Position numbers and translations under genes: made by a program. Under the pieces are notes generated by a model. The model saw only the letters and a list, made by a program, of their open reading frames with translations, was not told where the DNA came from and searched no databases. Source: Artemia franciscana (Eukaryota; Arthropoda; Branchiopoda; Anostraca; Artemiidae). Taken from it: a stretch of 64,000 nt of DNA. This document shows, piece after piece, positions 1,640 to 37,070 of this stretch; the stretch's first letter is position 1, and every line of letters begins with the position of its first letter. The stretch is from contig NC_088880.1 of assembly GCF_032884065.1 (NCBI RefSeq), positions 36,138,827 through 36,202,826 of the forward strand, read 5' to 3'.

Positions 1640-2950
1640 ACATGTTGATGCGTTTGGAATGAACTGTTTTATAAATTTGGAGGGAGTTCATTCCATTGCA
1701 AAGCAAAATTAAGGTGAAACTTTCCGAGATTATTGAGGGGAATGTGTGACTAACTCAAAACACACTAAATGCATTCAGATTGACAAAAGGGCGTATCAGC
1801 TGCATCTCAGGATCAAATTAGAGCATTAAGCCGATACTTCATGACATTTGAAGAAGGATGCTGATCTAAATTGAAAACACTTCTTTACGTACGGTTTATC
1901 AAAAGGGTAAATCAGTAATGTCTCAGCAATGCCTGAAGGTAACAAACCAAAACTTTTCAGGGGCGTGTAATGGGGGATATTGAACTAAATCATGAGATGC
2001 TTGAGCCATCCACGTTTGTCATCAGGGTGTATTTCCGGTATCTTAAGAAGGGATAAAGGCATCAAGTTGAAACATTCCTGGTATATTGAGGAGGTTGCTT
2101 AACTTAATCTTGATGATAAAAGGGTTGTATTTGCGATATATCGAGGATGCCAAATGGAATTAGAGAGAAACTTGTAACTGCTAATGCGGCTACATGTAAC
2201 TGTGAGTACTTGCAACTGCTACTACTGCTGATGTCACTATTGCTACTACTACTAATACTACTGCTACTAATTATACCTACTACTACTGCTACTACTGCTA
2301 TTGCTACTGCTATTGCTACTACTAATACTATTACTAATACTACTGCTACTACTACAATTGCCGCTACTGCTACTATTACTACTACTACTGTTACTACTAC
2401 TACTACAATTACTACTACTTTTACTGTTACTACTGCAACTGCTACTGTTACTAGTACTACTACTACTATTACTACTATTACTACTACTAATACTGCGACT
2501 ACTGCTAATACTAGTGCTACTATTACTACTACAACTATTGAGCCAAATCAAAAGATTTTAAAGTCCATATATTTTCTAAAAATGCCATCGATGCAATAAC
2601 TTAGGAATGTGATATGGTAGAGGGCTGTGAAATTAAATCCAAATAACTACATATATCCAGATTGTTAAAGCTTATTGTTAAAGGATATTTCATCGGAACT
2701 TCAAGGTATGTTGGTGGGGATGTCAAACTAAACAAAAAATACTATGCGCATAAAAGTTTGTCCGAAGGGCATATCTGCAATATTTCATCTACGAACTATG
2801 AATATTAAGTTAAAATTGTCTGGGTATGTTGAGGGGGAGATTGAACTAAATCTAAATGTGATGTATGCATCCAAGGCTGTCAAAGGGGTGTATCCGTAGC
2901 ATCTTAAGAAAGGTTAAGGGAAAAAGGCTAAGGGACCGTTGACGCGCCAA
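1640..2950 (+). repeat. Degenerate ~117-bp tandem repeat family (R117) with embedded triplet array
   Basis: A unit with the landmarks 'ttgaaactttc', 'atgttgagggg', 'ttgaactaaatc', 'gcatccag' and 'tcaaaagggcgtatc' recurs. The 'gaaactttc'-like landmark falls near 1715, 1831, 1947 and 2065, then near 2692 and 2810, so the period is about 116-118 bp. A 330-bp triplet array interrupts the repeats. The same family occurs inverted at 30.1-30.86 kb and direct at 50.64-51.56 kb. Confidence 0.75.
2213..2541. repeat. Imperfect (ACT/GCT/ATT)n triplet array
   Basis: About 110 imperfect trinucleotide units, mostly act, gct, att and aat. They give low-complexity Thr/Ala, Leu or Ser frames in three phases (2147-2599, 2301-2561 and the minus strand). 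These frames are repeat shadows, not genes. Confidence 0.92.
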
Positions 2951-4826
2951 TGTACCACCGGTCTATATGTATTTACCCTTACGTTTTTACAGTAACCTGT
3001 TGATTTCGGTGTACTAAGTAACCTAGCGTGCTACATAACTTTGTAAAATTTTATTGACATTGAATTCTTAGAGCTTAGAAACAGAGTAGGCAGCGGCGTA
3101 ATTAGGGGGAACGCCCCCAGAGCCTCCCAGAAATTTGGGATGTTCTTTTAAAAAGTTTATTCTATCCCTTACTTCAATCCTCTTGATTTCTTACAGCATA
3201 GTTTGATAATTTATTCGAAATGGTTTGCAGCAATAAATATTTAAAACTCTTTCAGCATTTGCTTATACTCAAGGGTGCAACATTATTGAGTTTAGGATTC
3301 CGTCCGCCCTACTGAACCTCAACGATTATGCAGATTTTGAACCTATGTTTTTAATAATTTTCTCCCTACGCATCATTCTAAATTAGTACAGTAAAACTAT
3401 TATCAAAATTTGGCCAACATATAAATAGTAAGCCAAAAACAAGTAAAAAAAAACAGTAGCCCATTTTTCAATATTCTGTTTTGTTTTACTTAGAGCTATA
3501 TCCTCCTGCGCCACCTGGTCGGCCCTCTCTCTGATACTTTCGTGCGTGCTCCTGAACAGAGATTTTTCGAAAACGACTTGTAAAGCATAGAATCCTGATC
3601 AGAACATCCCCATCTTTGTTTTCCTCACCTATGCCTACTAATAAAAGGGGAGGCAAAGCTATACATCGTTAAGTTTAGTGTATATATGTTTCTATGTGTT
3701 CTTTAGAGACTCCCAACTCCCTTTATATGTATGGCTAATAGTCTTAAGGTGTCAATCGCTGATTTTCATGCAGTTGCAAGCTTATTTTGAGATTTGTTTA
3801 TCAGACATTATAAACGTGTTCTGTCATTTTTTTTTTCAAATAATATTTTAAAATAAGAAACTATCTTGTAGTCAAATTTGCCAGAATATCGTTTCGCTTA
3901 ATTTAAGGCGTTACCTGCATTAAAACTAACAAAAAAAAAAAAATGCTTTCAACCAGCATGATCCGGAACTGCGCTTTTTATGGTTTCAAATCTTTGTTGT
4001 GTGAGTTGGGTACCGAACTAGCTACCGTGATTGCATCATACTGTAACCCTTAAGAATCCAATCTCAGCAAGTTTAAGGCTCACTTTTGTGAAGCTATAGA
4101 TTAGGATACCCTAAGAAAATTTTCTAGAACTATTTCGTCAAAAATACTCTTATTATGTTAGAAAGAGAAAAGCAAAAGGAAGAAAATTAATACTTAGTCT
4201 GAATCATCAATTTAAAAAAGGCATTCAAAATATGTAGCATTATACAAAAATATAACACCTTAATTAAAAGATGAAGTCTGATGTAATAGGGGTTTGTTTC
4301 CGGAGTAAGGGGATAATTCAGTTTAGGTTTAGGAGCAAGCAAAGCCAAAATTTTATTTTTTTAAAAACTAGTGGGAGCGGCTGGGAGATTTTGCTGTGCA
4401 TCCCATAAAAATACATGAAAGTATTTTTTTTTTTTAATTTAAGGGGGATGGTAGAAGTTTCATCAGGGTCTCCAGTTGTTTTTGCTCCCAACCCCAATCA
4501 TCAAAGCTACAATATAAGTAGATAAACAGAAACTCAGTTCGGCACCTCTTCAGAGGCTCCACATGGGACAGCCACCCCTCCTAGCTATACCCTTGGGGCG
4601 GATTTAGGTGGGGTTGGGGGTAATAACTATCGAGAAGCAGGAAGATACTCTCCCCACTCTCCCTGTTTATGCCACTCACATTATAGTCTTTTTGATAAAG
4701 TCAATGTTATTTGGCACAAGTGATGGGCCAACTTCTTCAGCTTCTTATTTCATATTAAACTCAAGAAAAAAAACATGGTCGGGCATAACAGTTTTTCCAC
4801 TTTTCGAATGGCTTAGCATTTCCTTT
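2951..4826. other. Intergenic, nothing recognised
   Basis: AT-rich sequence with short homopolymer runs. A small 'cggcgtaattagggggaacgc' block near 3092 resembles the ends of dispersed repeats at 37-38 kb. The 81-residue open frame at 4608-4853 runs into element L and shows no domain. No gene is supported. Confidence 0.5.
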
Positions 4827-14037: not shown

Positions 14038-14574
14038 GTGTTTATCATTACTTTTATCATCACTGCAACATACTCAGAAAGCACTGCTAAGAATGACCAA
14101 GCAAGCACCAAAACTTTGAGTCATTTATTCAGTGGCTTTGGTGGACTCGGCGGTCTTGGAAGCACAGGTGGCCTTGGAGGTGTTGGAAGTCCTGGTGGTT
14201 ATGGAGGACTTGGTGGTGTTGGAAGTCCTGGTGGTTATGGAGGACTTGGTGGTGTTGGAAGTCCTGGTGGTTATGGAGGACTTGGTGGTGTTGGAAGTCC
14301 TGGTGGTTATGGAGGACTTGGTGGTGTTGGAAGTACTGGTGGTGTTGGCGGTATTGGAGCTCCTGTTGGTGGATATGGGTATCCAAATTATGCCAGCTAT
14401 GGATACCCTGGGAGTTTATATAGCGCTTACAGCTACCCTTATGGGTATCAAGGATACAGCTACGGTTACCCATGGTACAGTTATGGATATCCAGGATACG
14501 GTTACGGATATACTGGCTATGGTTACGGGTATCCTTACGGATCTAGTGGATACCCTTATGCCTACGGAAAATAA
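14038..14574 (+). CDS. Secreted Gly/Tyr-rich structural protein, main (3') exon
   Basis: The 178-residue frame begins right after an acceptor (ttattctag). It first encodes a hydrophobic stretch, VFIITFIITATYS, that reads as the end of a signal peptide, so a short upstream exon with the ATG is expected and the frame starts in phase 0. The mature part is GGLGS-type glycine-rich sequence, then four tandem GSPGGYGGLGGV repeats, then a Tyr/Gly/Pro tail with many YGYP motifs, ending YAYGK. There are no cysteines and few charged residues. Such composition is typical of extracellular matrix, cuticle, eggshell or silk-like proteins. The exact role is not recognisable. The DNA repeats are identical copies, suggesting recent expansion. 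Confidence 0.75.
   Translation: MFIITFIITATYSESTAKNDQASTKTLSHLFSGFGGLGGLGSTGGLGGVGSPGGYGGLGGVGSPGGYGGLGGVGSPGGYGGLGGVGSPGGYGGLGGVGSTGGVGGIGAPVGGYGYPNYASYGYPGSLYSAYSYPYGYQGYSYGYPWYSYGYPGYGYGYTGYGYGYPYGSSGYPYAYGK
14185..14328 (+). repeat. Four identical 36-bp coding repeats
   Basis: Units begin at 14185, 14221, 14257 and 14293. All are 36 bp and identical by eye, including third codon positions. Each encodes GSPGGYGGLGGV. The absence of silent differences implies very recent slippage, unequal exchange or gene conversion. Copy number is probably polymorphic. Confidence 0.95.
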
Positions 14575-15669: not shown

Positions 15670-16160
15670 AAAGATGGCAAAGGCTGGTCTTGCCTTGTAT
15701 ATTTTTAATATTTTCCCATATTCTTTTGGAATAGATTTATGCAGAAATATCAATGGTTTCTTTAAATCACTGTTCATCGATGTTAAATGTGGGGGTAAGG
15801 ATTTAGTTGTTGGTATAATTTATCGATTTCCTAGTGGATCTGTTTCTATGCATCCTTAATGATCTACTGGATACCATCCACAAACAGTTGACTGAGTGAA
15901 TTACTATGGGAGCTTTAAACATAAATCTGATGGATATAAGATCTTCCATATCTTTTGATTTGCTTTAGTCCATACTTGCCACATGTACTTTGCCTTCTGC
16001 ATGTATCCCATCGCGCATAATAGAAAAAACATCATCTCTAATTGACAATGTCTTCTGTACTAGGCTACCTTGATCCAAAATTATGTTTTAGTGAGCAACT
16101 TTTCTGCTCATTTCCCTGTTTACTCTAGATACTGTTTTAATAATATGAATATTGAGAGGA
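15670..16160 (+). pseudogene. Endonuclease-domain fragment of a CR1/Jockey-like non-LTR retrotransposon
   Basis: Plus-strand frames read GLALYIF, then 'DLVVGIIYRFPSGSVS', matching the conserved VVGxIYRPPSGS region of apurinic-type endonuclease domains. Further on come 'ALNINLMD' (the usual GDFNINLLD) and 'SSLIDNVF' (the usual ATLIDNIF). Stop codons and substitutions lie between the blocks. Only the endonuclease part is present. A reverse-transcriptase fragment of a similar element type lies in the same orientation at 26.4-28.7 kb. Dead remnant. Confidence 0.8.
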
Positions 16161-17086
16161 CTAGTGAGTCTGGTAGGAGGTCTTTTAAGGCTGGACGGAC
16201 TCGCAAAGAATCTTCCTATACCTCCCATGTTAAACATTTGGAGTTTGCCTGACGTTCCTGAATTAGTGATTTTGGCGGTTTTTATGTCAATAGAAGTAAA
16301 AAAATCTGGTGAACATTTTGGCATAATCAAATCTTAAAGCCGACAATTATTTTTTTTATAATTCCAAAATAATTATAAAACCTGTTTCGGGTTTGCATTC
16401 TAGATTGCTAAGCTTGACATTGTTGTTGTGGGTATCAAAAACTAGAGCAAAAAATTTTCTATTCATCAATAAGCAGCTTTTTTCTATAATATATACCTCC
16501 TGGCTGCAGTCCCTTCAAATACTTTACATATTTGTGTTCCGAAATCAAAATTTCCCCTCAAAAGGTTAGATTGAGCTGTAATCGGAGCATCTAAGAATGC
16601 AAAAATTACACCAAGGGGCTAACCACTCGGATTGTTCAGGAGCGATTCAGTCAAGCATTATTTAGTTCTAACCTGTTTAAACAGAGTCTAGAGAAGAAGT
16701 AAGGTGCAGACACCAAACTGCCGGTTAATGAATGTATAAGAAAATTGTATTGTATAAATAATTAAGGATAAGCTGCGTCTAATCCTAGAGATAAATTGAA
16801 CACAGCACAAGGGCCGAATAAGAAGCAATGGTTTTATTTTAAAAAGATTGATCTATCGTTTTGGTTTAATTAAAATAAATTCAGGACAAATTTATGTATT
16901 GTAGTATAAGTACAATTTTGCATAATCTTCGTACTGAAATAAGAATTAAAAATATATAAAACAAGCTAATTAATAACTAATGAATGAAACAAAATAACTA
17001 ATGAACGAAACAAAATGTCCCAAGAATATTTAAATTTGTTATAGCAAAACCCGAGTCTTGCTGTAGAACTACCAAAGCAAACTACA
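16161..17086. other. Intergenic, nothing recognised
   Basis: AT-rich sequence. No open frame, RNA gene or repeat was recognised in this stretch. Confidence 0.45.
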
Positions 17087-17275
17087 AAAGCAGTCAATGA
17101 CCAGTCTCAAGTCCAAGGCCTTTCGAAGAAACAATCCCACCCCTTGGTAAATAAACCCCAATAAAAATTACCCATACTAAAGCAGTCAAATGACCAGTCT
17201 CAAGTCCAAGGCCTTTACAAGAAACAATTCAACCCTTTAGTAAGTGAACCCCGATAAAAATGGTCAAAACCCTAA
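17087..17275 (+). repeat. Two-copy ~92-bp tandem duplication upstream of the transposase gene
   Basis: 'aaagcagtcaatgaccagtc' begins at 17087 and recurs at 17179. Both copies continue through 'tcaagtccaaggccttt', 'gaaacaat' and 'aaccccgataaaaat' with few differences. It ends 40-70 bp before the first exon of the Mutator/YqaJ gene, so it may be promoter sequence or an element end. Confidence 0.85.
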
Positions 17276-17346
17276 TAAAGTTCTTCTATGGTTCTTGTTA
17301 TTGACCACAGTAACATGGAAAAAAAAGAAATATACGAGGGCTCCAT

Positions 17347-17618
17347 TTGCCAAATGTGCAGGCCCATCGTGAAAAGTTGAAATTAAATTATCGGGCTAGA
17401 GGCAGACCGCGTTTACCAAAATATATGTTAGGAGACTTAACGGATGCTTCGGTTCACGACGAATCAAGTTCCAAAGGAATTGGAACAAATTCCCCTTTTG
17501 TGTTTAAAGTTATCACTTCTGGAAGAAATTTGGGGTCAGACCTTCTAAAAGGCTCACGCTGGATTGTGGATCTGCCTTACCTTTTTGAGAATTATGAAAA
17601 GCTCGTGATTCGCCACAT
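17347..17618 (+). CDS. Mutator-type transposase/YqaJ nuclease gene, 5' exon
   Basis: This frame has a basic N-terminal part (GRPRLPKYM) and the block GSRWIVDLPYLFE, which fits the start of eukaryotic Mutator-like transposase-domain proteins (often xRIVDxxxL). It then meets a strong donor (cat|gtaagt) at 17619. Joined to the acceptor at 22315, the split ATG codon restores an open frame that continues HMCQDINLVS. The frame is open from 17314. The first in-frame ATG is at 17425. An ATG at 17315 lies in another frame just before an A tract, so the true start is uncertain and may lie in a further exon. The splice is inferred from sequence and phase only. Confidence 0.65.
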
Positions 17619-18116
17619 GTAAGTTTTTTCTTTGTCTTTCATTTTAATGTTTAATCAACAATTAGTTCCAAAGAATGTATGATACCAAAATATGGTACTA
17701 ATTTTTTTTTTGACAATACAAAGTTTAAGTAACTCGCTATAGTCGCCAGAAGTGCAAATGCTAAAAATTATGCAGAAAAGATTTAATATATTATTTTTTT
17801 GTAGAGGGTGAACAACCTTTTAATTGTGTTTTATGGCGAGGTGGTTCTTATAAACTTACTTTTTTTGTATCAATATTTCTAATTGACTTTAATTTCAATA
17901 GAACTCATCAGATTTTATATTAAATTAAAGTCCATGTCCACTACCTACCCACGACTTAGAAATTGTTGCAGTTCCCTTTAAATTGTTGGTATTTCTTTGT
18001 CCACAAGTTTATCGGAGTAACCTTTCATGTACACCCCCCCAAAAAAAATCCTAGATCCGCCCCTGACGTGGCGGGTGGGTAAATATTCACTAGGGAAAGG
18101 AGAAGTAGTACAAGGG

Positions 18117-18310
18117 TTATGCACGATATTGTTGGCAAAATAATAAGGAAATTTGTACTCTCATTTCCTTAAGGGTGACTAGATTTGCTCTCCGAAGAAG
18201 GGAAATGTAAGGCCCTTTACACTGTTTGAAAATAATTCTTAGACACGTTTTTTGAACTGCCTCTATTCTGTCCCACAATTCATTGGACATGCCAGAATGG
18301 CAAACAGAGA
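18117..18310 (-). pseudogene. C-terminal fragment of a non-LTR retrotransposon reverse transcriptase
   Basis: The minus-strand frame reads VCHSGMSNELWDRIEAVQ, then CLRIIF and YISLLRRANLVTLKEMR. This fits the conserved region downstream of RT in CR1/Jockey-type elements (W..L....LE.IQ+..LRIIF...YxxLLxxxxLxxLxxRR). It is truncated at the 5' side by a foldback module. Dead fragment inside the predicted intron. Confidence 0.7.
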
Positions 18311-18374
18311 AACAGAAAAAAAACACAAAAAAAAATGTATTAATCCAAAAACGTTCAGAAATAAAATGAAAAAA

Positions 18375-18641
18375 AAACAAGTTTTTGAACTGAAAGTAAG
18401 GAGCGACATTACAACTTAAAACAAGCAGAAATTACTCTGTATATTAAAAGGTTTTCTCCCTTCTCAACGCTCTGCTCCTTACGCTAAAGTTTTTAACTGT
18501 TTTAAAAAGTAAACTTAAGAAAAAGAGTCAAACTTTAGCGTAAAGAGCAAGGTGTTGAGGGAGGAAAAGCCCCTTTGATATACAGAGTAATTACTGTTCG
18601 TTAATTGTGCTCCTTACTTTCAGTTAAAAAACTTCTTTTTA
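18375..18641. repeat. Foldback module, stand-alone copy in the intron
   Basis: Both arms are present ('gaactgaaagtaaggagcg' to 'acgctaaagttt', and back from 'caaactttagcg'), separated by a ~40-bp loop. It is more diverged than the copies at 7.9 and 10.1 kb: the right arm has lost the stretch between 'ctgttcgtt' and 'gctccttac'. Confidence 0.85.
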
Positions 18642-18687
18642 TCATTTTTTTTCCAACATAAAGCGAACTTACCAGTAGGGGTAATTT

Positions 18688-20150
18688 CGAACAGTTCGTG
18701 GTAACGAACTGTAGTAAGGAGCGACCCGGCTCAATAGTAACCAAAGCTCTAAAAAACAGAATTTTGATATCAAGAGTTACATCTCAAGAATCGCACTGTT
18801 ATGCCGATTTTAAATATGTGAGTTTCATCATCAAGTTTAGTCTTACCCATCAAAAGTTACGAGCCTAAGAAAATTTACCTTATTTTCGAAAATGAGGGAA
18901 CCCCCCTAAAAGTCATTTAATCTTAAAGAAAGTAACACCATCAGATTCAGCGCATCACAGAACCTTATTGTACAAGTTTCAAGCTCCTATCTACAAGAAT
19001 GTAGAATTTTGAATATTTTGCCAAAACACAAATCCCAGATGCGTGTTTATTTATTTAATTCTTTTTTCCAAGGGTGATCGTACCGACCCAGTGGTCTTAA
19101 AATTTTGCGAGAGGGCTCATTCAAATGGAAATGAAAAGTTCTAGCGCCATCAAAATCCTGATATAGCCATTTTATTCAGCATAGTTGAAAAACCTTATAA
19201 CTATGTCTTTCAGGACGACTTACCCCCCCAAAGTTCCCATGGGAGAAGCTGCAAGTTAAAAACTTTGACCAGTGTTAGCACATAGTAATGATTATTGGGA
19301 AGTGTACAGACGTTTTCAGTGGGATTTTTTGGTTGGAAGGAGGGGTTGAGAAGAGGAGGTTATGTTGGGGAAACTTTACATGGAGGAATTTGTCATGGGG
19401 AGGAAAATTTCCATGAATGGGAGGGGGCAGGATTTTCTAGCATGATTTAAAAAAACAATAAAAAATAAATATGAAAAAGTGTTTTCAACTGAAAGTAAGG
19501 ACCAGCGGTAAAACTTAAGAAGAACAAAAAATATTACACATATAAGGGGTTCATTTCCTCCTAATCTCTCACTCTTTACGCTAAAGTATTTTTTAGTAAT
19601 TTCAATTATTTATTCTACGGCCTTTGTGATTCAGGGGTTATTCTTAAGGATTTAGGACAAAATTTAAGCTTTAGTGTAATGAGCGAGGTATTGACAAGTG
19701 GGCGAGCCCCCCTTATATACATAATAGATACATGCGAATATAGAAGTTCGTTAGGTAAGCTAATTCGTAAGTTATGTATATTTTTACTAATGAAAACCAT
19801 CGTAAAAAACTAAAAGCTCTAGTTGCCTTTTTAAGTAGCAAAAAATTGGAGAGCAGCTGGACCTCCTTCCCCGCTCATTTTTCTCAAAATCGTTTCGATC
19901 AAAATTATGAGAAAGCCGTTTAGCCAAAAAAATAAAAATTCAAATTTCGTTTTAATTATTCATCTGAGCAGAGCCGAAATCAAAAATATGGATTAACTAA
20001 AAAAAAACGTTCAGAAATTAAATAAAAAACGATATTTTTTAAATGAAAGGAAGGAGTAACATTAAAACTTAAAACGAACAGAAATTACCCAGTATATGAA
20101 AGGGGCTGTTCCCTCCTCAACGCCCCGCTCTTTACGCTAAAGTTTTTACA
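18688..20150 (+). mobile_element. Element L, degraded copy (3' truncated)
   Basis: Starts 'cgaacagttcgtggtaacg' with the intact 5' hairpin and follows the element L body, including the internal foldback (19480-19700). It enters the left arm of the terminal foldback (about 20030-20150) and then stops matching. It is clearly more diverged than copies A and B, with small deletions, so it is an older insertion. No coding capacity. Confidence 0.8.
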
Positions 20151-20454
20151 GTATTAAACAATAGATCTTTTAAATTATATTTTTGGTAAAAAACAAGGAG
20201 AGGGGCACTTTTGAAGGAAGGCCTAAAAATTCAGAAAAGAACTTAAAACAACCATAAGTAGCTACTTATACTTTTCCTAAGAGCGAATGCTTTGCTATAC
20301 CCCACCCCTCGCCCCTCTTTAAGTGACAGTTTATAGCCCATTATATATTTCCCCATTACATTTTGAAATAGCCCCACTTTTTACTTCTGTATTAATTTAT
20401 GACGAAAGCTAATCAATCGGCAGAAAAAATGAGTCGCGCTATTCTGAAATAAAT

Positions 20455-21660
20455 AAAAAAAAACAAGTTTTTTCAACTGAAAGTAAGGAGCAACATTAAA
20501 ACTTAAAACGAACAGAAATTACTCCGTATATGATAGGGGCTGTTCCCTTCTCAACGCCTTGCTTTCTACGCTAAAGTTTGACTCTGTCTCACAACTCTCC
20601 ATTTAAAAAAAAAAACTTGCCATTTTGAAAAATAAAAAAATATACTATGACGTTTAGGGGCGTTTCCCCTTAATTTCCAAACTCGTAACTCGAAGAAGAG
20701 TGGGATATGTTGGGGGAACTTTCCTTGGAGGAATTTGTCATGGGGGAAGAAAATTTTCATGAAGGGAGCCCAGGATTTTCTAGTATTATTTAAAAAAAAA
20801 TAATGAAAAAATAAATATGAAAAAGCTTTTTTCAACTGAAAGTAAGGAGAAGCATTAAAGCTTAAAACGAACGGAAATTATTAAGCATACGATAGGCTCA
20901 CCTCCTCCTAATACCTCGCTCTTTACGCTAAAGTATTTTTAGTAATTTCAACTATTTATTCTACGGCTTTTGTGATTCAGGGGTCATTCGTAAGAAATTG
21001 GGACAAAATTTAAGCTTTAATGTAAAGAGCGTGGTACTAACGAGGGGGTGAGCCCCTTCGTATACGTAATAAAAACATGAGAATACAGAAGTTAGTTACG
21101 TAAGCTGATTTGTATGTTACGTGTATCTTTTACTAATAAAAAGATTCGTAAAAAATTAAAATTGTTAGTTGCCTTTTTAAGTAACCAAAAAATCGGACGG
21201 CAACTAGGCATCCTCCCCCGCTCCATTTTTTCTCAAAATCATTCGATCAAAACTATGAGAAAGCGCTTTAGACAAAAAAATAATTATTAAAATTTCGGTT
21301 TAATTATTCATCTGCGGAGAGCCAAAATCAAAACATGCATTGATTCAAAAACGTTCAGAAATTAAATATAAAAAAAACAGTTTTTTTTTAACAGAAGTAA
21401 GGAGCGACATTAAAACTTAAGACGAACAGAAATTACTTCGTATATGAAAGGGGCTGCTTCCTCATCAACGCCCCGCTCTTTACGCTAAAGTTTTTACTGT
21501 TTTAAAAAGTAGAGTTAAGAGAAAGAGTCAAACTTTAGCGTAAAGAGTGGGGCGTTGAGGAGGAAACAGCCTCTTTCATATACGGGATAATTTCTGTTCG
21601 TTCTAAGTTTTAATGTTGCTCCTTACTTTCATTTAAAATACTTGTTTTTTTATCTAATCA
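20455..21660 (+). mobile_element. Element L, rearranged copy
   Basis: A lone left arm of the foldback module (20455-20590) is joined, through a short inverted piece of element L sequence (20590-20695), to the element L body from 'gggatatgttgggggaactt'. It continues to a complete terminal foldback module (21375-21652). Together with 18688-20150 it may be one element L copy disrupted by rearrangement. Sequence 20155-20455 between them is unrecognised. Confidence 0.7.
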
Positions 21661-22315
21661 TTAAAAAGTACGGATAAAGGTTCTGAAAGAATGTCTGCAA
21701 AGGCTTTAAACGATTTGAGAAATAAACTAGCTAATTTGATCCTCCTAACTCATAAAAGCATATTGGTATTTTTAATCGTACTAATAAGAACTTTGTGAAT
21801 TACTCGAATAAAAATTTAAATGATAGCTGAGATGCAACTGAATTTGGGGCACGGATTTTTACTTTGAATTTGATTTTAGGGAGTCAAGTGAGACTTAATT
21901 TTTCTTGGAATTTGGTTAGTAATTTCCGTTGGAATTTGGTAAATCGACACGGGTCTGTTTAGAGGGCATTTCCTGTCATGCCCCAAAGGATTTTGTAAAG
22001 TTTTGAAATACTTGGCTTTCCTGATTGGTAGTTCCAGGACAGTTTTTGGCTTGGTTACATACATAAATAAAATTGGGTGGTTTAATCTGACAATGAAATA
22101 CAACAAACTTTCGGTTAGATCGTATAATTTCCACTTTTCGCCCATTTCTAGCTATATTTTATATTTTATTTCATATTTTAATTACCCTACATCGCTCACT
22201 ACTCTACATACTACCTATCCTTTTTGAAGCTATAGCACTTTCCTTTCTACCAAAACAATAAAATCGCTACTTTACTATTTTACTTCCTCACAACCAATTA
22301 GCATTTTATTTACAG

Positions 22316-24034
22316 GTGCCAAGACATCAATTTGGTTTCAAATATGATGTTTTCTAAAGAACATAGAGCTGGATTGCGCTCAAGACTCATCTTCAAATGC
22401 GAATCATGTCATGAGGAAGCCACAATTCACACAGAAAAACCCCTTGCTCCTAGAAGGCTTAAAAAAAAGACTCAACGAAAACCGTAGTCAAAAAACGGAA
22501 AAGGACTGATTTTGATTGTGTGAATACTATCAGAAAGAAACACAAAACAGAAACAGGAACAGTAAGTGTCAACAAAGAGGTAGTGGTTGGTGCAATAAAT
22601 GGTGGAATGACTCACGCCCAGGTTCAAGAACTTTTCTCTACCATTGGAATAAATACCCCGTCTCAAAAAGTCTTTACGAAATTTGAGAAAGAAATTTGCG
22701 TAGAATTGGAAAAAGTTCTCTATGATTATCTTATCGAAAATGGGAAAACCGAGCGAAGGATGGCACTGGAAGCAGGTGAGAAAATTCACCCAAATGGAGC
22801 TGTAGAGACATGTGTTATAGTTGATGGAAGCTGGTGTACACGAAGTTATGGGAATAGATATCGTGCACTCTCAGGCTGTGGAGTGGTGATAGGTTTCTAT
22901 TCGAAGAAACTCTTAAATCTAGGAATTAGGAACAAATATTGCTGTACTTGCGTGAAATACAGGCATCAAGTTAATAGATCTGTTCCTGAACATACATGTT
23001 TTATGAACTGGCAGGGGCCCAGTACAGGTATGGAGTCAGATATATTAGTTGACGCATTCCGAATAGCAACATCCATGCACAATCTAAGATATACTCGATT
23101 TGTTGCCGACGGCGATTCGATTACCCGTTCTGAAATTATAGCAAGGGTACCATATGGCAGAAATGTACAAAAAATTGAGTATGCTAATCATGCGTGCAAA
23201 TGCTTGAAAAACAGACTATATAAGAAGCAGCATGAAAATGCCGAATGCAGAAGATTTCTTAGTGCCGCAATAATAAAGAAAATGTGTGATTTTGCCAGAA
23301 ATGCAATTGTATGTGCCACCACAGAGAAGAAAAGCGTGAAGGATCTCATCAGTGCGCTGAAGGCAATTCCTCTACATTTTTTCCGTGGCGATCATAGATT
23401 TTGTCCTACAAGCTGCTCGTTCTCCGGGAAAGTTCTACAGGTCAATCCTGAAGACACCCCTAGCAACATCTTTCTCAGCCATGTGTATTCAGCCTTTGAT
23501 ACGCTGACCAGAAGGGCTCGTCTACTGATAGGAAACCACACGAGCAACCTGGCAGAATATTTTATGAGCATAGTTGCAAGGCTTATAGGTGGCAAAAACA
23601 TCATGGTTAGCCAAAGTGCGCGATATACCACCCGTGTTAAAGCAGCAGGAATCCGATTTACGAAAGGTCACTCAGCTCGCCTTGAAATATTTCGAAGAAC
23701 TGTAGGATCTACACCAAGTAGGCAGTTGAAAAAACTTGCACAACAGCGGGCCATGACTACTGCTCGACGTAAAAAACTGTCTGCTAAAAAGCGCCTTTTC
23801 ACTAATGCTTCCACAAAACTCCCTTCAAAAGAAATCAGGGAGCCAACCGGAGCAGACAAAAACTACGGCTCGAACGCAACTGCTCCGGATCTTGATTGCA
23901 GTGCGCTCGAAATTGCAAAAACAGATTTTTTGACTCGTCTCCAATGTACTGCGACAGATATCCTCAGTATCGAAAAAGCCACTAGACTTCAGAGAAATTC
24001 TATCGATAATAGCTGGATAGAATACAGAAAAAAA
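22316..24034 (+). CDS. Mutator-type transposase domain (second exon, first part; one frameshift near its start)
   Basis: After the acceptor the frame encodes CQDINLVS, GLRSRLIFKCESC (a CxxC as in these proteins' N-terminal zinc site) and then breaks at an A8 tract (22461-22468). The next frame is open for 513 codons (GTG at 22520 is internal, not a start). Counted from there: VDGSW 101-105 with the first acidic residue, KYCCTC 139-144, DGDS 197-200 with further acidic residues, HRFCPTSC 292-299 as a zinc-type cluster, and SNLAEYF 342-348 with a candidate third acidic residue. This order matches the arthropod Mutator-like transposase domain. It should cut and join transposon ends in the nucleus. 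The frame ends at an A7 tract, where a one-base change leads into the nuclease part. Confidence 0.8.
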
Positions 24035-24656
24035 CAGAATTACAGCTTCCGTAGCTGGTGATGTTTGTAAAAGGCGGTTGAAGACTGTGGGCTCATTAGT
24101 TCGGCAGCTGCTGTATCCCAGAAACCGCCAAACAAAGGCAATGGAGCATGGTCAGATGTATGAGCCTGTAGCTATTGCAGCTTTTGCAAAGAAAATGGGT
24201 TGCATTGTGAACTCCGCTGGGCTTTTCATTCACAAGGAATATGGGTTTCTAGGGGCCAGTCCGGACGGGATAGCAATTTTTCCTTCGGGTGAGAAGGCTC
24301 TTTTGGAGGTGAAGTGCCCTTTGACAGCAAAAGGGCTTACATTGGAAGAGTGGATAGCGCTTAAAAAAAATACATGTCTAGAAAAGAAAGTTAATAGTGA
24401 AATAAAGCTGAAAAGAACACATGACTACTATTACCAAATTCAAATGCAATTGGAATGTTGTGACATTGATTTTGTATACTTTGTAATATTTTTAGGGGAA
24501 GAGGAATTATATTATGAAAAGATTGGTCGTGACCGTGAATTCTGGTCTAACAAAATGCTACCAAATCTAATAAAATTTTATTTTGAGGCACTGTTACCCG
24601 AAATTGTCGACGGAAGGTTGCCAAGAAGTATGGAGATACGAGAACCGTTTATATAA
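24035..24656 (+). CDS. YqaJ-family exonuclease domain (continuation of the transposase gene)
   Basis: The frame is open from the A7 tract (24028-24034) and reads RITASVAGDVCKRR before the 192-residue stretch counted from TTG at 24078. YqaJ nuclease motifs are all present: GQMYEP (Glu29), LGASPDG (Asp63), LEVKCP (Glu77, Lys79) and YYQIQMQL (Gln120, Gln122). This is the PD-(D/E)XK active site of the lambda-exonuclease-like superfamily, so the domain is predicted to be a metal-dependent 5'-3' DNA exonuclease. RITAS-type sequence usually precedes this domain within the same chain, so the original gene was probably one protein with the transposase. It stops at TAA/TAG-rich DNA, and AATAAA follows at 24790. 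Confidence 0.85.
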
Positions 24657-24787
24657 ATCCAACTGTGCTAGGTATGGGTAGTTATCATGTGTCATTACAG
24701 TCTTATCCGAATACAAATTCAGATATACAAATACTCAAGCAACAATCAAACTTTAGAATATTTTTTAATGAACCCGTATGGATAAGC

Positions 24788-25822
24788 TAAATAAAAAGAA
24801 CAAGTTTTTTTTAACTGAAAGTAAGGAGCGACATTAAAACTTAAACGAACAGAAATCACTTCGTATATGAAAGGGGCTGCTCCCTCCTCAACACCCCGCT
24901 CTTTACGCTGAAGTTTTTTACTGTTTTAAAAAGTAGAATTGAGAGAAAAAGAATAAAACTTTAGCGTAAAGAGCGGGGCGTTGAGGAGGGAGCAGCCCCT
25001 TTCACATACGAAGTAATTTATATTCGTTTTAAGTTTTAATGTTGCTCCTTGCTTTCAGTTAAAAACATGTCTTTTTTTCATTTAATATCTGAACGTTTTT
25101 GAACTAATGCATGTTTTGATTTTGGCTCTCCACAGATGAATAATTAAAACGAAATTTCATATTTATATTTCTCATAATTTTGATAGAATCACTTTGAGAA
25201 AAAAGGAGCAGGGGAGGAGGCTTAGTTGCCCTCCAATGTTTTGGTTACTTAAAAAGGCAACTAGAACTTTTAATATTTTACGAACGTTTTTGCTAGTAAA
25301 AGATCTACGTAACTTACGAGTTAGCTTACGTAACGAACTTTTGTATTCTGTTAGTGTATTAGCGTGGGAAGAGGCCTATGTGCCCTCCAATTTTTGAGAT
25401 CACTTAAAAAGGGTACTATTTTTTTATATATAATTCACTTGTATATAACTTCATTTCCGTTGGAATGAGCCCGCTTGCAACATTCTATGACAACTGGTTC
25501 GATATAATCACCCCTGGAAAAAAAAATCCATATTTTTGCTGATAGAAGCTTAACACTTCCACGGTAGGGTTCCCTGATAGGCTGATTCGGATGGGTGTAA
25601 TTTTGGTTTTATTACTTTTATTGGGTGTTTCCCTCTATTTTCTAAAATAAGGCAATTTTTCTTAGACTCGTAATTTTAGATAGGTATCTCATATATTCAA
25701 AGTCAGCATTAAAATGCGATTTTGTTCATGTAGCTATTGGTATCAAAAATCCGTTTTTTAGAGTTTTGGTTACTATTGAGCCGGGTCGCTCCTTAGTACA
25801 GTTCGTTACCACGAACTTTTTG
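24788..25822 (-). mobile_element. Element L, inverted copy with internal deletion
   Basis: On the minus strand it starts CAAAAAGTTCGTGG at 25822 (one hairpin arm altered) and runs through the 5' body. It jumps near 25340-25345 from the middle to the 'gttacgtaagc' region and ends with a full terminal foldback module (24799-25070). About 0.7 kb is missing relative to the full copies. Confidence 0.82.
24790..24795 (+). promoter_or_regulatory. Candidate polyadenylation signal AATAAA
   Basis: It lies 134 bp after the nuclease stop codon and falls in the extreme end of an inverted element L copy. The transposon would therefore supply the signal. Prediction from the hexamer only. Confidence 0.35.
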
Positions 25823-26380
25823 ATAAAATGAAATAAATTTGACTCTTCGCTGCGATCAATTATTTAAATTATATTTTTCTAAATAGGTCTGCATGAAGTA
25901 AAAACCCGAAAATATGTACTTTTATTTGTAATTTCCACAATTTTATACCGCGTCTCCTGGCAAATAATGATGACCAGACCACAGGCACACACGCAGGCGA
26001 GGGATTCACCCACCTTAGATTTGTATAATGCTTAATTTTCTCAGCGAAAAGTTTAATTTTCCTGTGTTTTCCTGGTATTTCTTTCGTAAGAGTTGAACCC
26101 CCATCCTCAAAAAAAAAATCTCGAATAATAATTTCTCTAATTTTCTCCTCGAATAATAGTTCTTTTCCAAATAAATATTCATATTTACTTGTCGAATTAC
26201 GAAGAATGAATATACATTAATCATAATTTTCAGTGAGAAACCCCTTGAGTTTAATGACGGCAGTGAAATCTGATAACCTTGAGTGTTTGTGTGATATACC
26301 GCGATAGAAAAAGAATTGAAAAGACAGTATAAATTCTGGAGAAGCGTCCAGCCTTAAATTTGGTGAAGTGGAATTAATGC
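25823..26380. other. Intergenic, nothing recognised
   Basis: AT-rich. The 69-residue minus frame at 26015-26224 has no recognisable features. Confidence 0.45.
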
Positions 26381-26389
26381 TGCTTAGGT

Positions 26390-28740
26390 CAAGATTGGAA
26401 GATATTTCTTGGGATAATTTTGAGATTGATTCTGATTTTGTATTTCATTTGATACTTTTCATAAGTCTATCAAAGATACTTTTCTTGATATTTGCTCTTT
26501 TTCACCTTCTAATCGTAAGTGTAAGAGTGCCTTTCCCCTAAATCCTAGGATGATTCCTGGTATCCATTAATGAAGTTGTAGAAAAAAGATTTCCGGAAGG
26601 ACTGTAAGTCTGCTATCTCCTCTCTGAAAGCTATACGCTTTCAGTGATTTAAAATTTTTAAAAATCTTTTTAATTATGTGTGTCGAAAGGCCAAGTCCCA
26701 GTATTATTATAAATGTGTTTCAGATTGTGGTAAAGATATTCGAAAAACTTGGCAGGCTATAAATTCTGTCTTTAGACCCTCTTTTCAGTCTCCATCAGTC
26801 CCTTCTTTTTTGGATCTCCATGGCTAAATTATCGAGGGCTAAATTATCGAGGGCAAACTGAAATTTCAAGATGCATTTACTTTTTATTTTGCGAATATTG
26901 GTAAAACGACCGCTTCTGCTGTTAGTTCTTCTCCGTCACGATCCAACTGCAGGTCTTATCTTGGCAACCGTGTTTTAAGTCAATTTTCTTGGAACCAGCG
27001 ACTGATATGGAAATTATTAAAATTCTATGGGATTGAAAAATTCCTCGTCGATGCTTTCTCGTCTTAACAATTTTCTTACTTCTAACTTTCAACGATTTTC
27101 AATTTTGTTTTCGAGAAAATCATTCAAGTGAGCATGCTTATTAGTTTTATTGAATTATCTTCGCTCTACCCTAGACCCCCTTTTGATTCTTGTTGTTTTG
27201 ATTTTTGATGCTCGTAAAGCATTTGTTTCTCTAGCCAACAGTGTTCTTTCTAAACTTTCTCCTTTTGGCGTAAAAAGTGCAATTCCTTGGTTCTAGTCTT
27301 TCATGTCTGGTAGAATAATTTCTATTGATCCGCTTTTTAGCTCACCATAAAGTGTAGACCAAGGGGTCCCTTAAGGGTCAACTTTAGGGCCAGAATTATT
27401 GTTAATTTATGTAAATGACCTAATTTCCGTTGATTTTTTTATATTTTTAACACTATATTTAGCCATTCTCTGGGGAAGGGAATATAGAATTTTTAATTTT
27501 GCATTATGTATTGTAAGTTCTAATTTACTGTTTCTTGTTATTTACTTATTGTCTCAATTAAATCTTATTTATTGTTGTATACGTCGTCTAACATTCTCCC
27601 CTACCCATAACCATAGTTTGTATTCCTTGGATTCTTTTGTTACTTCTGCCGATGATACTACCCTTACTACTTCTGGGAGAACAAAGAATGAGGTTCTTAC
27701 AAAGTTAGGAGGCTTGTTTGAGAGAGTTTTAATTTAATCTATTTCTCTGGCTCTAAATGTTTCTAAATCTTGATTTTTAGTTTTTTTCTCATATATTTCA
27801 GGCTTGTCCTCAACTATCTGAAATTCATATATCCAAAGGCTTCATTAGTAGAAAAAGGGATGGTCATGTCCATTTCCTAGGTATCCTCCTAGATGAAAAT
27901 TTATCTTGAAAACACCATACTGATTTGATTAAAATGAAGGTATGCAAACCTCGGTATTCTAAGAAAACTGAAACATATTTTTCCTTGACTAATTCTAAGA
28001 ATCTTGTTTCACAGCTGAATTGATTGTTTAATTAAAATTTATCTTAATCTTAATTAAATGTTTCTTTTTGTCCAGTCAGATGGATGTCTACTTTTTCTTC
28101 CTTTCTCAAACCACTTTTAAGCACATCATATAGTAAAGCTATAAATCTTATACAGGATGGAAATCGTTCGGCAACTAAATTGTTACTTGATATTAAAAAA
28201 CCTATGTTCTTCTCCTGTGCGTCTTCCGCTTTCCTTCAGTTCCTTGGTGATTTTCCCAGGTCCCTTAGATTTATGTCTTCTTCTGTATTTGATCGGTCAA
28301 ATTATCAGCTCCGTAGTTTTCTAAATATTCGGATTCCACGTACACCGACAGTAAGATTCGATCTTAATCCTTTCATTGTGTGTCATTTGATGTGGGAAAT
28401 CCTTCCCGATTCGCATCGAGAATGCCACTGGTTTGGCGCCATCAAAAGACTTTAAAAAAATTATTTTGTTTCCATATGATTATTTTTTCCTTGATGGAGG
28501 CATATATTCATCATAGTTTATTTAATAAACTCTCTTTTCTTATGTTTGTTTATATTTTTTCATTTTCAAGAAACAAATGCTTTGCATGTTAATGTTTAAG
28601 TTTAATAGTTCAATGTAAGGATTTTGTGTCATAATCCCCCTCCTACGGGCCATGAAGCCTTTGTGGGGAACTGTAGACTGTAGTGTTGTTATTGTATTGT
28701 TATATGGAAAATAAATTTATATATCTATCTACCTATCTAA
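26390..28740 (+). pseudogene. Decayed CR1/Jockey-like non-LTR retrotransposon (RT region to 3' tail)
   Basis: Several frames together show the order of a non-LTR polyprotein. A linker reads 'KTWQAINSVF' (about 26740). RT blocks include 'FDARKAF' (about 27205), 'VDQGVP' followed by 'GSTLGPELLLIYVNDL' (27355-27420), and 'TSADDTTL' (27640), the catalytic (Y/F)ADD motif with Tyr replaced. After RT come 'HFLGILLDENLS' (27870) and a region ending 'IRIPRT' and 'LPDSHRECHWFGAIKRL' (28330-28455), typical of the C-terminus. The 3' end is AT-rich with 'aaataaatttatatatctatctacctatct'. Many stops and frameshifts make it inactive. The endonuclease part is missing. Confidence 0.8.
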
Positions 28741-34185: not shown

Positions 34186-35365
34186 GTTTCCACTTTGACG
34201 GATTTTTCCGTCAATAACGGATTTTTTGTCTTCGACGGATGAGAGTTTGATCTGTCGTATTTTTGACGGATTTTCAAAGTTCTTACATAAGAATTTAATT
34301 TAGTTGTTTTTATTCTCAAATCACTCTGATCTTTCCTGAGTATCAATCTTTACTTTTGTTTCTTGGTTGTTTTCCGTTCCGACTATTTTCCAACCAGGTT
34401 TGATTCCCAGCCAGACTAATTAGCTCGCCTACTCCAGTCTAGAAACTGGTTTGGGGTTAACACGATCAAGTCGCATGATCTACTTGTCAATTAGCCGTGA
34501 GCTATGCAGTGAGTCAGGTTAGGTTGATTCCTGCGATTTATTTATACCGGGCTCCCGGTAAGTCCAGAGTCCGGGCCCGGGAGACAGAGTTAGTACTGTA
34601 TTATATTAAAGCGGGGAAGCTATTGGAAACTGAGGAGGCGTTTTGTTGCATACGTTGATACGATACGCGGTTAGTAAATAGGCTACTTCAAGAAATTGAA
34701 TAAAAAAAAAAAGTTTTTTTAACTGAAAGTAAGGAGCGACATTAAAACTTAAAACGAACAGAAATTACTTCGTATATGAAAGGGGCTGCTCCCTCATTAA
34801 CACCCCGCACTTTACGCTAAAGTTTGGCTCTTTCTCTTAACTCTACTTTTTAAAACAGTAAAAAACTTTAGCGCAAAGAGCTGGGTGTTAATGAGGGAGC
34901 AGCCCCTTTCATATACGAAGTAATTTCTGTTCGTTTTAAGTTTTAATGTTGCTCCTTACTTTCAGTTAAAAAAACTCAATTTTTTATTTGATTTCTGAAC
35001 GTTTTTGAATTAATGCATATTTTGATTTTGGCCAGCGCATGATTTCTCCAACCCTCTTATCTATCCCCATTCACACCACCTTTTTCAAGGGGTGAATAAA
35101 TAGAATTTTAAGCATCTTTTTCTCGTTTGACAGCCCACGGATCTGGTGGAATATATTTTGGGAGCAGCATTGAACTCCAGGAAATGTTTTAACAGAGCAC
35201 ACTGTTCTGCTTATAGTAACTGCTTATCACAATATCACAATAGTTATCACTGCTTATCACTGCTTATCTAGCAGTTATCACTGCTTATCACAATAGTTCT
35301 ATTTGAAGAGATTTTTGTTATGGATTTTGAGGATTTTTTAACGAAAAATTTGACGGATTTTTGCT
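34186..35365. mobile_element. Insertion inside element L with 'tttgacggattttt' ends
   Basis: About 1.18 kb that separates two parts of one element L copy. Its left end has repeated 'ttgacggatttttccgtcaa' and 'gacggatgagag', and its right end has 'aaaatttgacggatttttgct'. The ends therefore share GACGGATTTTT in the same orientation. It contains a unique GC-richer stretch (34380-34640: 'ccgggctcccgg', 'ccgggcccggg'), a complete foldback module (34705-34985) and short CACTGCTTAT repeats (35215-35300). No coding sequence. Class unknown. Confidence 0.5.
34705..34985. repeat. Foldback module nested in the insertion
   Basis: Complete inverted arms from 'aactgaaagtaaggagcg' to 'acgctaaagtttgg' and back to 'gctccttactttcagtt'. 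The arms differ at only a few positions and the loop is ~45 bp. It is followed by 'atttctgaacgtttttgaa', which in full element L copies lies just outside the module, inverted. It may therefore be the end of an inverted, truncated element L. Confidence 0.85.
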
Positions 35366-37070
35366 TTGATGAGGCTGCTTCCTCATCAACGCCCCGCTCT
35401 TTACGCTAAAGTTTTGTACTGTTTTAAAAAGAAGAGTTGAGAGAAAGAGTCAAACTTTAGTGTAAAGAGCGGGGCGTTTATGAGGAAGCAGCCCCTTTCA
35501 TATACGAAGTAATTTCTGTTCGTTTTAAGTTTTAATGTCGCTCCTTACTTTCAGTTTAAAAAAACTTGTTTTTTTATTTAATAAGTAAAAGAGAACTAAT
35601 ACATTGTAGTGATAGCAATCAGAGCAGAGAGCGCCTTGCTTGTTCGAGTATTATAATTGCTACAATCAGACCTAACCTGAAACATGCCTGAGAAGCATAA
35701 AGGTACATTATTATTACCATTATACTTAAACACAAATAACAGGATATCTAATGCTATCCATTAATATTTATAGATGTTGTGATTCATTGCAGTTTGATAA
35801 AGCTAATTTAATAAATTCTCTCTCTTTTTTTATTTAATTTAATACGAAACCAGCTGCTAACCTCATTTCCTACCTTAACCGCAGCAAAATTATTCTCGTA
35901 CATAGCACTAATCACTTTAATATATTTGTCTGGTATACCATATAAGGATAAGATCTTACTAAAGCACTTCTATCAACAGAATAGAACGCTTGCTCATAAT
36001 CAATAAAACTGAGGACCAAAGGTGTTTGACAACTAAGGCACTTCTTAATTATAACCTAAGAGTAGAAATTTGGTCGAAACATCCTCTTCCTTTTCTAAAA
36101 CCCGCATTGTCCTTCTCTTAAAAATTTTTCTACAGCATCTCTCATTCTAAAAAGTATCATATTACTAAGTAATTTGCTACCTACAGAGACCAGACTAATG
36201 CCTCGATAATTACGACAATCGATATATTACTTGACATTTACGGTGGTTTAATTAAGGTTTTCCTAAAATTGTTAAATACTTCCCTTTTTTCAAAAATCAT
36301 ATTCATAGTCTTCAGTAACTTATTTCTTACCTCAGAGCCACCATATTTAAGAAACTCATTTACCGCACTATCAGCACCTGGGGGCTTATTATTTTTTTAA
36401 TCCTTTTAGTAATGTCGCTAATTCTTCCTAAAAACACAAATCTTCCTTCACATCCTTGGCATCACAAACTTCTTCATTTTCTTTTATATCTTTTGCTGCA
36501 ACTGTACCTCGGTTTAGCACATTCTCAAAATGTTCCGCCCATCTCTCTTTAACTCTGTTCTTATCACTAATTGTGGCCCCGTTCCTATCTTTAACTGGGA
36601 CAAGTTCGGATTGACTACTTCCTCTCAATTTATTAGCATGCCAGTACAATATATTACTATTATGCCCTCCAGCTACATCTTCCTTATCCTCGGTAATTTT
36701 GTCCATGGCCTCCACTTCACACCTCCTTAGTTCATATTTTAATGCTTTCTCCACTTACTTTACATTCCTTTTGTTTTCATATGATCTATCACACAGATAA
36801 GTCTTACACAAACCCCTTCTACTCTTTATTAAACATAAAGCTTCTTCACAAATATTCCTAGATGCAGTCCTAACTTTCTTCCCATAGACACCATCAGCAA
36901 TTTCACAAATTGTTTTTTTTTTTTAATTATTCCAACCATCTTTGATATTGTCAAATTTTAAACTCTTATGTTTAGTATTCATCTGTTCCTGGAAAGTTCC
37001 TTTCAAATTCTCATCATGGAGTCTACAACATGTTGGTAGACATCATAGTCTACCAACATTCGGAATTATG

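Follow-up and report, generated by a model that had tools for sequence, protein, structure and literature searches.

Transposons of the Kolobok superfamily encode a DDD/E transposase and insert with duplication of a TTAA target site. The published marks of Kolobok and of its KolobokE group include this TTAA duplication, GG..CC termini, a C/DxxH signature and two zinc fingers, and in KolobokE a lambda-exonuclease-like domain is located after the transposase (Kojima & Bao 2022, PMC9587614). The same source gives the Kolobok termini as 5'-RR ... YY-3', places CCHC, C/DxxH and HxxCxxxC in that order between D, D and E in KolobokE, describes C/DxxH as common to Kolobok and MuDR, and states that MuDR has no zinc finger in the stretch from C/DxxH to the last E (PMC9587614). 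The ISL2EU transposons of the PHIS superfamily are likewise reported to carry a YqaJ exonuclease, in elements whose terminal inverted repeats usually start with GG, but there the nuclease is described as a second ORF accompanying a transposase with HTH/THAP domains (PMC4482050, PMC9179366).

Here, we analysed a 64,000-nucleotide stretch of the Artemia franciscana genome, hereafter the window, in which a split gene joins a transposase to a YqaJ nuclease. This gene is very probably, judging from its sequence, the transposase gene of a decayed KolobokE-type Kolobok DNA transposon of 10,165 bp, a filing that rests on motifs, ends and target site set beside the published description. The element resembles KolobokE, as described, in its PD-D/ExK lambda-exonuclease-like nuclease downstream of a DDE transposase, its 4-bp TTAA duplication, its RR..YY termini, its C/DxxH signature and both zinc fingers; it differs in having an intron with repeats and in being broken in the window copy (PMC9587614). 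The architecture of transposase plus nuclease has already been described under the name KolobokE (PMC9587614). Our literature search found no paper naming Kolobok together with YqaJ, and for Mutator, YqaJ and transposon combined it returned only bacterial studies, judged from the listings. Compared with the published outline of ISL2EU, the Artemia element has one chain, a PF20700 core and TTAA sites.

Domains of the fused gene

The second frame of exon 2 (22463..24061, forward strand; open at 22463-24058, TGA at 24059-24061) encodes the DDE transposase and matches Pfam PF20700 ("Mutator", "Mutator-like transposase") with an E-value of 1.8e-60 and 205.2 bits against a curated cut-off of 26.5. 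The third stretch (24021..24656, forward strand; coding 24021-24653) returns to the first frame and encodes the YqaJ / lambda-exonuclease-like nuclease, which matches PF09588 (YqaJ) with an E-value of 3.6e-18 and 66.7 bits against a cut-off of 22. An earlier note on this DNA had proposed both domain families from motifs, and the domain search bears this out with scores far over both curated cut-offs.

All the motifs named at that time are present on the forward strand: VDGSW (first D, 22820-22834), ADGDS (second D, 23105-23119) and HRFCPTSC (HxxCPxxC, 23393-23416) in the second exon-2 frame, and GQMYEP (24150-24167), GASPDG (24252-24269), LEVKCP (24303-24320) and QIQMQL (24435-24452) in the nuclease. 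The second frame also holds, on the same strand, a CCHC zinc finger (22940-22999), a C/DxxH site with Tyr for Cys in the window copy (YANH, 23180-23191) and the E (23546-23560) of a putative DDE triad identified from the order of motifs, which in aligned relatives runs CCHC, C/DxxH and HxxCxxxC between D, D and E. CCHC (CxxC...HxC) follows the first D in all eight rows covering the region, and HxxCxxxC occurs in seven of eight covering rows, in all four families, Tyr replacing the last Cys in locus L028. The C/DxxH site reads CANH or CVNH in 15 of the 15 loci matched by a free-position pattern (12 of family A and three of family B; 20 scanned), and CANH is also found in L040 and L041. The HxxCxxxC zinc finger would be expected to bind metal.

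Over its catalytic core, the nuclease matches a RecE-like phage family (E 7e-20), the solved exonuclease structure 3syy, which we take to be LHK-Exo (E 6e-6), and, weakly, lambda exonuclease 1avq (E 0.09). These are phage or bacterial enzymes, whereas here the domain is a predicted nuclease located C-terminally on a transposase chain.

Fusion and conservation across families

Both domains stand on one frame in related copies and in three further families (B, C and D) of 29-53% identity. The earlier note had named beforehand, as a point on which the fusion would turn, whether homologues carry both domains on one chain, and such chains were found: both Pfam domains share a single frame in six of the six long related frames scanned, from four families and in contrast to the two-ORF layout of ISL2EU, and YqaJ lies just downstream in 11 of 11 sampled PF20700 matches, all of family C or D by best match, both samples having been chosen from best-scoring lists. 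These comparisons support the prediction that both domains reside on one chain in the family. In this genome, several families carry a transposase-nuclease fusion at high copy number, and the frames of some copies are intact. The families with the fusion are diverged and number at least four, and the fusion has gone together with hundreds of copies. When viral contigs were searched for the transposase frame, nine stretches matched a pattern, of which none was confirmed. Rfam at its gathering threshold returned no matches and ARAGORN no genes.

The E, D and ExK motifs of the nuclease are kept in the four diverged families, save in single copies such as L027, which has GASPEG in place of GASPDG (Glu at the Asp). 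Protein identity of the nuclease is 50% between families A and B and 57% between C and D. The NG86 method gave no finite synonymous distance in seven of seven comparisons, synonymous change being saturated; dN/dS could be computed by LWL85 in two of the seven, at about 0.18 (transposase, families A/B) and about 0.23 (YqaJ, families C/D). Since the linker between the two domains is about equally conserved (51-52% identical), the conservation of the nuclease is not exceptional.

This last comparison speaks for the idea that YqaJ is carried along as a passenger domain with no role in transposition; also in favour of that idea, our literature search found no experiment on a KolobokE nuclease. We nevertheless regard a passenger as improbable: the catalytic motifs persist across four families, protein identity remains at 50-57% while synonymous change is saturated, and ISL2EU transposons, as described, are also accompanied by YqaJ nucleases (PMC4482050, PMC9179366).

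To the question of why a DNA transposase would keep a phage-type exonuclease, our tentative answer, possible rather than probable, is that the fused nuclease may resect the cut donor and force homologous repair, through which an element that moves by cut-and-paste would increase in number. Excision by the transposase would leave broken donor ends, which the fused lambda-type exonuclease would resect 5'-3'; resection would steer donor repair toward a homologous copy, and the donor site would thus keep its element, with an additional copy gained at another locus. If this were true, the chain of a cut-and-paste transposase would also supply the enzyme that resects the ends. A link between end cleavage and resection had already been suggested in the earlier note.

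Boundaries and target site of the element

In the window copy, the split gene is enclosed by the element at 16189-26353. Its left terminal inverted repeat, GGCTGGACG, lies at 16189..16197 on the forward strand, and its right one, CGTCCAGCC, at 26345..26353 on the reverse strand. They are bordered by TTAA target-site copies (no strand assigned) at 16185..16188, from flank comparison in which the joined-flank halves overlap exactly at TTAA, and at 26354..26357, from the end search and the joined-flank search. The genome-wide copy count that the earlier note had called for gave 201 matches to the left-end pattern (32 bases, at most three mismatches; none with a reversed control) and 111 to the right-end pattern (22 bases, at most three mismatches; none in the control).

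Every left end found (12 of 12) has the terminus GG and every right end found (nine of nine) CC; of the eight right-end stretches that were fetched, one (L032) yielded no right end, and the inverted repeat is imperfect at seven of nine right ends. TTAA borders both flanks in eight of the nine copies with both ends located, in searches whose patterns included TTAA itself and tolerated 4-5 substitutions; the departures among copies are TTAT at one left end and TAAA at one right end. When the flanks of the window copy were joined, 19 of 22 genome matches spanned the site without the element, and two further matches were the window's own halves, overlapping by exactly TTAA. Five paralogous empty sites read TTAG (four) or TAAG (one), none having an exact TTAA.

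The Pfam name "Mutator-like transposase" and the C/DxxH signature, common to Kolobok and MuDR (PMC9587614), would suit a Mutator (MuDR) transposon that picked up a YqaJ nuclease, and the earlier note had called the transposase Mutator-type. It had also called for a search for terminal inverted repeats with 8-10-bp duplications, a length it gave for Mutator; short inverted ends are indeed there, but the duplication is TTAA. Flanks agree at 15/72, 22/81 and 23/90 positions for 8, 9 and 10 bp, against control identity rates of 0.27-0.28 (0.27 at 9 bp), and no 8-10-bp duplication is seen. The element has GG..CC termini and a zinc finger between C/DxxH and E, the latter stated to be absent from MuDR (PMC9587614). 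A MuDR origin is therefore very unlikely, the assignment being rejected because of the target-site evidence. With Kolobok as the preferred reading, a likely mislabel is corrected: by its TTAA sites, the Pfam "Mutator-like" domain of the Artemia element belongs to Kolobok.

Exons, intron and reading frames

For exon 1 (17315..17618, forward strand), the frame that is open in the window copy (17314-17618) is not the frame of the likely start, the ATG at 17315. The equivalent ATG is in frame in five of 11 related loci; in five others the exon-1 frame is without a start there, and the eleventh (L027) is cut at this point. A phase 2 intron follows (17619..22315, forward strand), with the donor GTAAGT (17619-17624) and the acceptor TTTACAG (22309-22315) located as previously claimed. 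It contains repeats in the window copy, and the intron of a related copy (L023) measures only 258 bp. Among 17 family-A loci, of which several stop short of exon 1, the donor is found in 12 and the acceptor in 15. Family B has an exon-1 homologue (best E 5e-12), and in one of its loci (L021) the splice sites agree with those of the window copy in position and phase. This comparison of related copies supports the predicted intron as real.

The first frame of exon 2 (22316..22484, forward strand), the N-terminal CxxC part, is ended by a TAG at 22485-22487 and matches PF20700 positions 28-62 with 21.3 bits, under the cut-off of 26.5. The exon-joined peptide scores 21.1 bits, with no gain from exon 1; since this score does not help with the splice, the case for it relies on exon-1 conservation and on the position and phase of the family-B intron.

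The two exons together would encode about 880 residues. Of the split gene yielding one chain of about 870 residues, as first proposed, the intron is upheld by the related copies, but the chain is not open: exon 2 shifts frame twice, and the likely start ATG does not lie in the open frame. As judged from its reading frames, the window copy is unable to produce the protein as one chain.

Both frame changes are located where the frames briefly overlap, and these overlaps (22463-22484 and 24021-24058) include runs of A, as might be expected if they were programmed ribosomal frameshifts rather than decay. Relatives, however, read through: all of exon 2 is in one frame in three of 17 family-A loci (L011, L012 and L027), in 12 of the 17 the frame that closes with the YqaJ C-terminus measures 409-784 residues, a length at which it must extend across from the transposase, and a single long frame is present in each of the seven loci that represent families B, C and D. 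The window copy, moreover, has Tyr where the matched loci have the Cys of C/DxxH. Programmed frameshifting is for these reasons highly unlikely, and we favour decay.

A domesticated host gene assembled from transposase and nuclease, which the earlier note had entertained and which introns and long chains would allow, has a negligible probability and is rejected because of copy number and decay: what lies here is a frame-broken copy, retaining both ends and TTAA, of an element that has 201 left-end matches in the genome, 150 scored exon-1 places among 574 candidates, and fetched family-A exon-2 copies that are 96.7-99.0% identical to it (91.6% for L026). Both the frame changes in exon 2 and the enclosing element had been overlooked by that note.

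Element ends, target sites and assignment

The split transposase-YqaJ gene lies within an element that spans 10,165 bp in the window copy, with a left end, GGCTGGACG, starting at 16189 and a right end, CGTCCAGCC, stopping at 26353; sequence common to several copies begins at about 16185. Using end-search patterns that themselves included TTAA and allowed 4-5 substitutions, we located 12 left and nine right ends; TTAA stands directly outside 11 of the former and eight of the latter, and it brackets eight of the nine copies in which both ends were found. No right end was found in one (L032) of the eight right-end stretches fetched, and the inverted repeat was imperfect at 7/9 right ends. Past TTAA, the two flanks show no agreement: over 9 bp, 22 of 81 positions are identical, versus a control rate of 0.27. 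Across the 1.27-Gb genome searched, with up to 3 mismatches allowed, the left end, searched as a 32-base pattern, gave 201 matches and the right end, searched as a 22-base pattern, gave 111, against 0 for either reversed control.

Joining the window flanks via a single TTAA yielded 22 genome matches. In 19 of these the sequence continues through the insertion site with no element present; two others come from the window itself, one from each flank, and overlap by exactly TTAA, and the remaining match is partial. Five of the 19 empty sites were fetched; they align without gaps at the insertion point and carry TTAG (four sites) or TAAG (one), exact TTAA being present in none of the five. Because these 19 paralogous sites lack the element and the joined flanks (16065-16184 and 26358-26477) form, by eye, an open frame, we conclude that the element inserted into a repeat, perhaps a LINE. 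A nearby stretch at 27375-27737, which we take to be reverse-transcriptase-like, received no support from Pfam.

Members of the Kolobok superfamily are characterized by a DDD/E transposase and by insertion with TTAA duplication. The relevant passages of Kojima and Bao (2022, PMC9587614) give 4-bp TTAA duplications and RR..YY termini for Kolobok, and the transposase-nuclease architecture is already named there, as KolobokE. The features published in those passages are found in the window's element family, apart from single-copy exceptions, namely the Tyr in the C/DxxH of the window copy, the zinc finger of L028 and the nuclease Asp of L027. Comparisons of the YqaJ part gave E = 7e-20 for phrog_434, a RecE-like phage family, and E = 6e-6 for 3syy, an exonuclease of solved structure; the match to lambda exonuclease (1avq) is weaker, at E = 0.09. 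On the basis of these features and exonuclease matches, rather than of a tree, we file the element, with reservation, as KolobokE. The Mutator identity given in the earlier note was dropped, since the label follows Pfam's name for the domain and the target sites do not support it.

Coding capacity of the window copy

The two domains read from the motifs were both recovered by Pfam, PF20700 ('Mutator-like' transposase) at 22463-24058 (E = 1.8e-60) and PF09588 (YqaJ) at 24021-24653 (E = 3.6e-18). Exon 1 by itself obtained no Pfam match, and the score was no higher for the two exons joined. The earlier note described a two-exon gene (17347-24656) encoding one chain of about 870 residues; its motifs and splice sites are in place, but the chain is not open in the window copy. 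The frame from the splice acceptor ends at a TAG (22485-22487), the transposase occupies a different frame closed by a TGA (24059-24061), and the nuclease returns to the first frame. The likely start, ATG 17315, is out of frame; among 11 related loci, the same ATG is in frame in five (L009, L013, L017, L020, L025) and not in five others, while L027 is cut at this position. The Cys of C/DxxH is replaced by Tyr in the window copy and is retained in 15/15 related loci matched, out of 20 scanned with a pattern left free at that position. The frame breaks, the out-of-frame ATG and this Tyr make the window copy look decayed.

Related families and the splice junction

Genome searches scored the best 150 of 493 candidates for YqaJ (all 150 listed exceeding the cut-off), the best 114 of 860 for PF20700 and the best 150 of 574 for the exon-1 protein. 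Among 17 loci of 10 kb sampled from family A, that of the window copy (L009-L020, L023-L027), exon 2 is open across 784 residues in three (L011, L012, L027), and the frame ending at the YqaJ C-terminus spans 409-784 residues in 12. The diverged families B (L021, L022, L028), C (L040) and D (L041-L043) display the same domain order in one frame and are 52-53% (two aligned), 32% and 29% (L041 only) identical to L012, respectively. Both domains were detected in all six long frames run through Pfam (L012, L027, L022, L040, L041, L042), and YqaJ lies directly downstream in 11/11 PF20700 matches sampled at steps along the search list; both samples were drawn from best-scoring lists and thus favour well-preserved copies. 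The 11 downstream stretches best match families C or D, some covering part of the domain. Separately, the nuclease of L022 (frame 1870-4134, residues 518-639) matches Pfam Viral_alk_exo at 29.1 bits (cut-off 20) and L040 reaches 16.6 bits, under the cut-off, which hints at a wider viral alkaline nuclease group.

Comparison with related copies supports the predicted 17618/22316-type junction, as the earlier note had proposed. Family B possesses an exon-1 homologue (L021, E = 5e-12, 33% identical) that likewise begins with a Met-Gly-Lys-like stretch and whose splice sites share place and phase with those of the window gene, the phase being read from the printed sequence. In family A, where several loci stop short of exon 1, the donor was found in 12/17 loci, invariably as GTAAGT, and the acceptor in 15/17, as TTTACAG or TTTGCAG. 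The window intron, 4.7 kb long, contains repeats; in L023 the same donor and acceptor are just 258 bp apart, so most of this intron is dispensable. Family C and D frames continue farther upstream, unbroken. Related copies also differ in blocks: near 17646 they either carry an insert of about 1.1 kb or have a short stretch in place of about 1.3 kb, and about 390 bp are added after 25357 (25357/25358) in 14 of the 15 copies reaching there.

Possible role of the nuclease

Nuclease and transposase share one chain in four families, and the nuclease motifs are mostly kept. The nuclease is 50-57% identical between families, with synonymous change saturated; since the adjacent linker is conserved to a like degree (51-52%), such conservation argues only weakly that the nuclease has a special role. 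The fused nuclease might trim 5' ends at the donor break, and such resection could tip donor repair towards homologous copying. YqaJ also accompanies ISL2EU transposons, where the passages concerned (PMC4482050, PMC9179366) place it in a second ORF, unlike the single chain found here; this association hints that such nucleases aid DNA transposons.

Other features of the window

An abundant fold-back repeat occupies 24788-25090, in the 3' part of the element, and related stretches occur in the intron (about 18370-18602, 20017-20609 and 21363-21658) and elsewhere in the window (about 34691-35582). Its genome search returned 4961 candidates, the 40 scored giving 80 matches on both strands. Outside the element, an open frame at 14038-14571, without a Pfam match, encodes a hydrophobic start followed by tandem repeats rich in Gly and Tyr, with a 36-bp unit and 98% matches, and resembles a secreted structural protein.
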